Part shown: positions 9,593-11,122 of the stretch, piece after piece
Position numbering within the stretch: the first letter of the stretch is position 1
Layout of the letters: every line of letters begins with the position of its first letter
Assembly: GCF_003931915.1 (NCBI RefSeq)
Contig: NZ_RSAA01000020.1
Coordinates: 248,001 to 312,000, forward strand
Reading direction: 5' to 3'
Length of the DNA: 64,000 bases
From: Saccharopolyspora rhizosphaerae
GTDB lineage: Bacteria; Actinomycetota; Actinomycetes; Mycobacteriales; Pseudonocardiaceae
Notes under the pieces: generated by a model
What the model saw: the letters and a program-made list of their open reading frames with translations, nothing else
Told to the model about the DNA's origin: nothing
Database searches by the model: none
Position numbers and translations under genes: made by a program

Positions 9593-9613
9593 GGGGCCTT
9601 GCGGCAAGACCTC
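9593..9613. promoter_or_regulatory. Rifamycin-associated element (RAE) upstream of rox
   Basis: GGCCTTGC (9595-9602), a central G, and GCAAGACC (9604-9611), flanked by GG and TC, form an almost perfect inverted repeat. It matches, from memory, the rifamycin-associated element found upstream of rifamycin-inactivating genes in actinomycetes. It lies 87 bases before the rox start and just after a TATAGC box at 9581-9586. It supports rifamycin-inducible expression. Confidence 0.82.
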
Positions 9614-9700
9614 GGGCATGCCGCAGAATCTCCGTCCATGAAGCCGCGACCTGCGAGAACTCTCTGATTCGCGGCGCGGTCCATCGCGGGGGTTCGACTG

Positions 9701-11122
9701 ATGTTCGACGTTGTCATCGCCGGTGCCGGTCCGACCGGTTTGACGCTGGCGGCGGAACTGCGGCTGCACGAGGTGCGGGTCGTGGTGCTCGACGAGAAGA
9801 CCGCGCCGACGGAGGTGGTGCGGGCGCTGGGGCTGCACGTGCGCAGCATCGAGGTCGTCGACCAGCGCGGGTTCCTGGACCGCTTCCTCGAGGAGGGAAC
9901 GCGGTACCCGCTGCACGGGTTCTTCGCCGGGATCCAGAAACCGGCCCCGGAACTGGACACCGCGCACGGCTACGTGCTCGGCATCCCGCAGCCGAAGATC
10001 GACCGGTTGCTGGCCGAGCACGCCCTCGGACTCGGTGCCGAGGTCCGGCGCGGCTGCGAGGTCGTCGGGCTCGACCAGGACGAGAACTCGGTGTCGGTCG
10101 AGCTGGCCGACGGATCCCGGCTCCGGACGCGCTACCTCGTCGGGTGCGACGGTGGCCGCAGCACGGTCCGCAAGCTGCTCGGCATCGGCTTCCCCGGCGA
10201 GCCCGCACGGTCGGAGACGCTGCTCGGCGAGATGCTGGTGGCCGATCCACCGGAGCAGGTCCGCGCGGTGCAGGCCGAGGTGAACAAGCGGCAGCGGATC
10301 TTCGGGCTGACCCCCGTCGACGGCGAGGTGCACCGCGTCATCGTGCCCGCCGACGGCGTGGCTGAAGACCGCTCGACACCGCCGACGTTCGAGGAGTTCA
10401 CGCGCCAGCTGCGGGCGTGGGCGGGAACCGATTTCGGAGTGCACTCGCCGCGGTGGCTCTCGCGGTTCAGCGACGCCACCAGGCAGGCCGAGCGCTACCG
10501 CTGCAGCCGGGTCCTGCTGGCCGGCGACGCCGCGCACGTCCACCCGCCGATGGGCGGCCAGGGCCTCAACCTCGGCGTGCAGGACGCGTTCAACCTCGGC
10601 TGGAAGCTCGCCGCGGAAGTCCACGGCTGGGCCCCGGAGGGACTGCTGGACACCTACGAGACCGAGCGGCACCCGGTCGCGGCCGCGGTGCTGGACAACA
10701 CCCGGGCCCAGGCCGAGCTGATGGCCGACCACGCCGGAGCGCGGGCAGCGCGTCGGCTGGTCGCCGAGCTGATGGACTTCGAGGAGGTCAACCGGCACCT
10801 CGTCGAGAAGATCGTCGCGATCGGCATCCGCTACGACTTCGGTGACGACCACGACCTGGTTGGCAGGAGGCTGCGCGACATGCCGCTGCGAGCAAGCCGG
10901 CTCTACGAGCTCATGCGCGGAGGCCGCGGGTTGCTGCTCGACCAGACCGGGACCCTGTCGGTCGCAGGCTGGACTGACCGGGTCGACCACGTCGTCGACG
11001 TCAGCGAGCAGCTGACCGCACCGGCGGTGCTGCTGCGCCCGGACGGTCACGTGGCCTGGGTCGGCGACGAGCAGGAGGGCTTGGAGGCGAGCCTGACCCG
11101 GTGGTTCGGTGACCGCGTGTGA
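9701..11122 (+). CDS. rox: Rifampicin monooxygenase (FAD-dependent, class A)
   Basis: A 473-residue flavoprotein hydroxylase of the p-hydroxybenzoate hydroxylase fold. The FAD motif GAGPTG is at residues 8-13, [13 protein letters not shown] near 150, and the second FAD motif [18 protein letters not shown] near 275. The C-terminal thioredoxin-like part ends [16 protein letters not shown]. From memory it is close in order and wording to Streptomyces Rox/RIFMO, including [21 protein letters not shown] and [14 protein letters not shown]. Those enzymes use NADPH and O2 to hydroxylate the rifamycin naphthoquinone and linearise the ansa chain. The RAE at 9593 agrees. Transcribed alone; the next transcript begins near 11190. 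Confidence 0.9.

Follow-up and report, generated by a model that had tools for sequence, protein, structure and literature searches.

A rifampin monooxygenase gene with an upstream palindrome

The window analysed here is a stretch of 64,000 nucleotides from Saccharopolyspora rhizosphaerae. It contains a gene that is open over 473 amino acids and is preceded by a near-perfect palindrome (Table 1). The predicted protein matches the NCBIfam profile rif_monoox, a curated equivalog profile with a threshold of 800 bits, over its full length: residues 2-471 align with positions 1-471 of the 472 in the profile. Among 106 matching sequences in the PDB, the top two are 5vqb (697 bits), a rifampin monooxygenase, and 5kow (673 bits), a putative rifampin monooxygenase also deposited under pentachlorophenol 4-monooxygenase. 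The third best, the polyketide oxygenase 4k2x, scores 355 bits, and p-hydroxybenzoate hydroxylase only about 41 bits. The first-pass annotation, which had likened the gene to Streptomyces Rox (RIFMO), is thus borne out by the profile score and by the comparison with characterised Rox; an unrelated hydroxylase of the p-hydroxybenzoate type was not seen as best match. Judging by its sequence, the product should be a rifamycin-inactivating monooxygenase. In the part of PMC7283461 consulted, Rox of S. venezuelae and N. farcinica is described as oxidising and linearising rifamycins.

Table 1 Features of the rox locus and its neighbourhood (window coordinates).
Feature	Position	Strand	Basis
SigJ-like ECF sigma factor, C-terminal SnoaL-like domain	8192-9079	-	
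Glyoxalase/bleomycin-resistance-type protein	9162-9548	+	PF00903
Hairpin GGCGG-GAACA-CCGCC, 5 bp, at expected leftward start	9556-9570	-	sequence
Expected leftward promoter start	near 9570	-	predicted
TACGTT, proposed leftward -10, 21-26 nt left of centre	9577-9582	-	TANNNT in 138/138 gene-oriented sites
RAE, 19-bp near-palindrome, centre G at 9603	9594-9612		sequence; upstream of 74/80 named rox loci
TTGCGG, proposed -35 of sense (rox) promoter, within RAE	9599-9604	+	position, conservation; predicted
TTGCCG, proposed -35 of leftward promoter, within RAE	9602-9607	-	position, conservation; predicted
CAGAAT, proposed sense -10, 21-26 nt right of centre	9624-9629	+	A2, T6 in 136/138
Expected sense promoter start	near 9636	+	predicted
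rox, rifampin monooxygenase, 473 aa	9701-11122	+	NF033145 853.5 bits, cut-off 800; PDB 5vqb, 5kow best
Cobalamin riboswitch	11185-11427	+	Rfam RF00174, 91.4 bits
Ribonucleotide reductase alpha-subunit ORF	11346-13952		
Second cobalamin riboswitch	17962-18185	-	93.6 bits

The glyoxalase-type gene ends 45 bases before the palindrome, and a sigma factor gene lies further to the left. On the other side, a cobalamin riboswitch is placed between rox and the ribonucleotide reductase frame; a second one occurs on the other strand. A Pfam search with the antisense open reading frame 9575-11689 returned zero matches.

The palindrome, GGCCTTGCGGCAAGACC, can be written as GGCCTTGC-G-GCAAGACC and occupies 9595-9611 (the first-pass annotation spanned 9593-9613). 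Its arms pair at 7 of 8 positions. From 9613, taken as its right edge, 87 bases lead to the ATG of rox at 9701, the very spacing that had been annotated. The rifamycin-associated element (RAE) is described in the available text of PMC10719064, PMC12802891 and PMC10194278 as a 19-bp palindrome preceding rifampicin-protection genes of Actinobacteria. The palindrome at rox fits this element by length, position and target genes, rather than by its published letters.

A second copy of the element precedes helR

We searched the draft genome, 5.82 Mb in 34 contigs, for the exact core GGNCTTGCNGCAAGNCC of the element. It occurs twice, compared with once for the same pattern read backwards; with up to three mismatches it occurs 756 times per strand against 1380 for the backwards control over the whole genome. 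With counts like these, the core alone is weak evidence within one genome, and what counts is where the copies sit, not how many there are. The second exact copy (C32:290335) is found on another contig and precedes a gene for HelR (NF041258, 1274.7 bits, cut-off 1100), one of the places where the first-pass annotation had suggested looking. This genome has a two-site RAE set: rox and helR.

The near-matches of the core with one to three mismatches were set aside as RAEs, the backwards control being commoner. One of them (C34:181202) sits within an open reading frame of 143 codons, and a copy of CTTGCGGCAAG (C11:170019), likewise discarded, within one of 514 codons.

A single rpoB gene was found. 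Its rifamycin region (locus L194, G000:C27) reads NPIAGLTHKRRLSALG; in E. coli numbering, residue 521 is I, and residue 522, S in E. coli, is A. The residues that presumably correspond to D516, H526 and S531 in E. coli numbering are kept, and the RNA polymerase of this organism therefore looks sensitive to rifamycin, as far as its sequence can tell.

The element is a regular companion of rox in relatives

A search with the rox protein gave 581 matching stretches, of which the best 80, all with organism names, were kept. Within 400 bp upstream of the gene, 67 of these 80 loci carry the exact core and 7 more a core with one mismatch, 74 in total. The core is absent, with 3 to 6 mismatches, from the remaining six (L089, L097, L098, L105, L107 and L114). 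The closest approach to the core among 240 background windows taken from these loci was 3 mismatches, a level reached 6 times. Broader samples contain the core as well: 225 of 297 genomes at the level of the family and 129 of 296 at the level of the class have it. The rox locus is well supported as an ordinary member of a known system.

Sites for comparison came from 30 loci of the family sample, the 80 loci of the rox protein search, 30 loci of the class sample and 20 hand-picked from the class listing. Exact-core sites of L004, L005 and L032-L191, once duplicates and sites near a locus end were dropped, gave a set of 138: 83 at rox, 37 at helR, 11 at rgt and 7 at rph. The gene was assigned by tblastn, and each site was oriented by its gene alone. 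Checked by NCBIfam, an Rgt example and an Rph example both had the right best family under its cut-off (537 bits against 800, and 651 bits against 999 for Rph, a cut piece).

Nine sites had no gene assignment and stand outside the 138. Five of them (L050, L173, L175, L177 and L178) precede Arr genes by NCBIfam, with 153.5 to 207 bits and thus above the equivalog cut-off of 130. L051 resembles these Arr sites. L190 keeps neither of the flanking hexamers described below in full, L191 was cut at the RAE by the chosen coordinates, and L034, a core match with T at its centre, was rejected as a chance match having neither hexamer and no known resistance gene.

Two mirrored -10-like hexamers flank the palindrome

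When the 74 named rox sites are aligned on the centre of the RAE, conservation extends from about -41 to +60, an element of about 100 bp with the RAE in central position. Its conserved blocks are CTCCTTGCC at -41 to -33, CAAC-N-TATAGCGCA at -27 to -14 and GTGCCGCAGAAT at +15 to +26, the last followed by a weaker GGCCGAAGCC. The annotation of the palindrome as an RAE stands; it was incomplete, however, as the palindrome looks like the mere middle of a larger two-way element.

Five bases to the left of the centre are invariant in all 74 sites: A-26, T-22 and A-21, and likewise A-19 and C-17. Read on the opposite strand, the first three supply the fixed letters of a TANNNT hexamer, which are those that sigma70 needs most in a -10 element. 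In the window this leftward hexamer (TACGTT, 9582 to 9577) and the sense hexamer lie at mirror-image distances of 21-26 nt from the centre, and 19 bp separate each of them from a TTGC motif of the palindrome (TTGCGG for the rightward hexamer, TTGCCG for the leftward one). We propose that the RAE, instead of being an isolated operator, would serve two sigma70-type promoters, placed back to back, as a common -35 region, with the rightward promoter driving rox. A consensus promoter scan of 9500-9720, which allows spacers of 16-18 only, compared with 19 here, found none.

All 138 gene-oriented sites have the leftward TANNNT; as they are related by descent, the count does not stand for 138 independent events; variable neighbours at -23, -12 and -6 provide an internal control for shared descent. 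In the sense hexamer, A+22 occurs in 137 and T+26 in 136 of the sites. The five Arr sites outside the set read TACGTT, TACAGT, TATAGT, TATGGT and TAAAGT in the leftward direction. One rox locus (L124) has the RAE and the leftward hexamer intact and lacks the usual CAGAAT region, the place reading TAACCT.

Could the block CAAC-N-TATAGCGCA instead provide the -10 of another promoter in the sense direction, in tandem with the first, there being no leftward promoter at all? The forward TATA is itself nearly invariant in the 74 named rox sites, and M. smegmatis helD is reported to have two promoters in the sense direction (PMC10719064, section 9). However, the forward reading, TATAGC, has no final T. 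Its T-20 and A-19, both needed, are present in 132 and 130 of the 138 sites, and the forward TATA is lost in nine sites, all nine of which keep TANNNT leftward. Among the sites without it are the helR site of this very genome, with the leftward hexamer TAAGAT, and L176, with TAAAAT. In addition, A-26, which a tandem promoter does not need, is found in 138 of 138, and the hairpins with T-rich tails described below point left. We consider a tandem arrangement very improbable.

On the coding strand, 115 of the 138 sites have G at the centre of the RAE, 22 have C and one has A (loci noted in this respect include L038, L052, L055 and L056). This bias is notable, as a symmetric protein site would favour no orientation. 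Taken jointly, the Rox assignment, the RAE and the back-to-back promoter anatomy make up a reading of these sequences that we regard as likely.

The proposed two-way element recurs across the phylum

We combined the core and both flanking hexamers into a composite pattern of 53 bp, with up to three mismatches allowed. In this genome it matches only the rox and helR sites, with no mismatch in either, and its backwards control matches nowhere; the helR site also matches on its opposite strand, with 3 mismatches. In a phylum sample, 29 of 198 genomes have the composite, and the backwards control gave none among the matches listed; as the pattern contains the hexamers, this count speaks for breadth and targets and not for independent conservation.

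Among 28 new composite loci, both hexamers are exact in 21, all of them sense-oriented ahead of matches to rox, arr, helR, rgt or rph. Eight of the 21 come from outside the class, and six of these eight have CATAAT as the sense hexamer. Their leftward hexamers include TAAATT, TAAAGT, TAGATT and TAATGT.

At four loci outside the class (L196, L213, L214 and L221), the composite precedes genes just 39-47% identical to this Rox, which could encode either distant Rox enzymes or new rifamycin-acting hydroxylases. RAE-like units are found on plasmids too: a plasmid collection queried with 9560-9640 of the window had 36 matching records, of which Streptomyces accounts for 28. At 11.85 Mb, one record in the list resembles a chromosome.

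In most rox relatives, a leftward transcript would soon end

In rox relatives, 7 nt past the leftward -10, the sequence often reads GGCAAGGAG-loop-CTCCTTGCC followed by TTTGCTTTTT or similar, that is, a hairpin with a T-rich tail. We applied a fixed rule: a hairpin at the promoter start, and as the tail at least 4 T within the next 8 bases. Leftward, 67 of the 74 named rox sites have the hairpin and 55 the hairpin with the tail. Rightward, the same rule applied to the same sites finds 28 hairpins and none with the tail. Mononucleotide shuffles, which preserve base composition only, give 39% hairpins and 5.6% hairpins with T-rich tails; 895 genomic TANNNT controls gave 409 and 64, respectively. 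From these controls, the hairpin by itself is unremarkable, and its combination with the tail is remarkable.

The two arms of the stem also match one another. Pairing is 95.7% for native arms against 80.4% for swapped arms (maximum 85.6%) over 44 distinct stems, a comparison that favours native arms, the stems having been chosen for at least 8 of 9 pairs. Such stems occur at 59 of 83 rox sites, 10 of 37 helR sites, 4 of 11 rgt sites and 4 of 7 rph sites, and with a T-rich tail at 49, 3, 1 and 4, respectively. Mean fold z-scores are -2.38 leftward and -0.19 rightward for rox; the seven rph sites average -2.34, those of helR -0.75 and those of rgt -0.49. On these scores and stem counts, rox has a clear predicted leftward terminator and rph a likely one; at helR and rgt it is weak or missing.

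Two further ideas were rejected. The hairpin stem is not a copy of RAE letters, as the stems vary while the RAE stays constant. Nor would the RAE arms themselves form an RNA stem, their variable positions -6 and +6 being often unpaired.

In the window itself, a 5-bp hairpin occupies the spot where many rox relatives carry the hairpin and tail. A T-run was looked for after it and is absent, and a consensus terminator scan of the RAE region of the window found none. The same kind of scan calls a terminator at L082, where 0.4 would be expected by chance over the stretch scanned. A leftward RNA of the window would be antisense to the glyoxalase-type gene if it ran that far.

In most of the rox relatives examined, the first stretch of the leftward RNA would fold into a hairpin with a T-rich tail, and transcription should stop after about 35-40 nt. 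The leftward promoter would be a 'promoter to nowhere', with no useful product. Since its -10 is kept and, in many rox loci, a terminator follows at once, what matters about it should be that polymerase initiates there or occupies the site, or else the short RNA itself. A divergent promoter of this sort is known in E. coli: P3 of aroP, controlled by TyrR, makes no useful product and blocks the productive promoter. P3 requires TyrR and amino-acid effectors and has no shared palindromic -35, unlike what we propose for the RAE.

The leftward promoter might also be a mere by-product, a symmetric activator recruiting polymerase both ways and the terminator silencing the useless arm. Such an origin would explain both the mirror symmetry and the terminator. 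A useless -10 should drift, though, yet the leftward hexamer is kept in 138 of 138 sites, compared with 136 for the sense one. Two sites depart from the usual sense hexamer, shifted one base outward in L118 and ending in C in L189, and both keep the leftward one. We hold a by-product to be improbable.

RNA polymerase as a possible sensor of rifamycin

Both promoters depend on one palindrome, and a polymerase bound at either would exclude the other. With a polymerase parked on the leftward promoter, the rightward one should then stay shut. When rifamycin is captured by this parked polymerase and the complex leaves the DNA, for instance through HelR, rox would open. HelR would help the rifamycin-bound polymerase to leave and, its own gene being an RAE target, would close a positive feedback. 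HelR is described as clearing rifampicin-stalled polymerase off DNA in the available part of PMC10719064.

We put two versions of this scheme into a calculation. Exclusion with rifamycin pre-bound to some of the polymerases was rejected: it gave no induction, with a maximal output of 0.99999 of the basal level over 20000 random parameter sets. With capture on the promoter followed by release, 479 of 20000 random sets gave more than 5-fold induction, all 479 combining slow departure from the leftward promoter with fast release. In an example set, this capture-and-clearing model reached a calculated induction of up to 24-fold.

Leftward firing, exclusion of the rightward promoter and action of rifamycin through eviction are what we infer from the anatomy and the calculation. 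The eviction step, taken alone, is tentative, at roughly one chance in three at best. It is similarly doubtful, if attractive, that the RAE works with no dedicated sensor protein, RNA polymerase, the target of the drug, being the sensor and the parked polymerase the repressor.

Two observations in other bacteria count against the scheme. When the two promoters of B. subtilis helD were moved so near to one another that their polymerases became mutually exclusive, induction was lost (PMC12802891, section 48), a result that, by analogy, speaks against an exclusion model. In M. smegmatis helD, a sense promoter start is reported about 20 bp upstream of the RAE (section 9 of PMC10719064), which the two-way anatomy does not predict.

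The established alternative is a dedicated RAE-binding protein, acting as a dimer, that would switch rox in response to rifamycin, both -35 regions lying under its site; we give it a little less than an even chance. It is the standing idea in the sections consulted of PMC10719064 (section 9) and PMC12802891, in which the factor goes unnamed, and according to the former, M. abscessus lost helD induction when half of the RAE was deleted. In rox sites, CTTGC-N-GCAAG varies hardly at all, and neither do the flanking GG and CC. A -35 alone would not demand such strict conservation of the palindrome, which suggests that a protein binds there. As this protein would cover both -35 regions, a repressor that comes off the DNA is more readily imagined than an activator. 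Alone, however, it leaves unexplained the mirror-image leftward -10 in 138 of 138 sites and the terminator that follows it in many rox loci. An RAE-binding protein may well coexist with a two-way promoter.

Relation to known systems and significance

One of the closest known systems is that of S. venezuelae, whose RAE-controlled rox and helR are the same two targets, each behind a 19-bp upstream palindrome (Spanogiannopoulos 2014 and Surette 2022, as cited in the available text of PMC10719064 and PMC8655204). That pair was found through the RAE (PMC10719064), and both organisms join a rifamycin-inactivating monooxygenase to HelR. In contrast to the present account, a leftward hexamer and hairpin go unmentioned for S. 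venezuelae in the portions of the literature examined.

In M. smegmatis, a rox homologue, helD and arr are induced by rifampicin independently of sigB, according to the available text of PMC6529629. The RAE of the helD, arr and rox genes in Mycobacterium overlaps the -35 of the sense promoter (PMC10719064, section 9), as we propose here. The extra sense promoter reported there upstream of the RAE, in contrast, is not predicted at our locus.

A further likeness is the dual-promoter alarm of B. subtilis helD/pps, where a second promoter restrains the gene and polymerase senses the drug (PMC12802891, sections 48 and 49). This likeness in polymerase sensing extends to an idea that is only proposed for the RAE. 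The B. subtilis promoters are convergent, 39 bp apart and both loadable, whereas those at the RAE would be back-to-back with a shared -35. In its consulted sections, PMC12802891 itself separates RAE genes from the B. subtilis alarm.

Rox, the RAE and the rox and helR pair were already known. What may be new is the understanding of the RAE as a probable two-way promoter: a leftward promoter or terminator at the RAE is not mentioned in the portions of the literature searched, and the primary RAE and HelR papers could show it. How the RAE senses rifamycin is termed unsolved in papers of 2022 and 2026 (PMC10719064, section 9; PMC12802891, in the text available). If the RAE is a two-way promoter, this question would become testable by a few point changes and cell-free transcription. 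If true, one switch design would stand behind five routes of resistance to one drug, which rely on monooxygenase, HelR, glycosyltransferase, phosphotransferase and ADP-ribosyltransferase.
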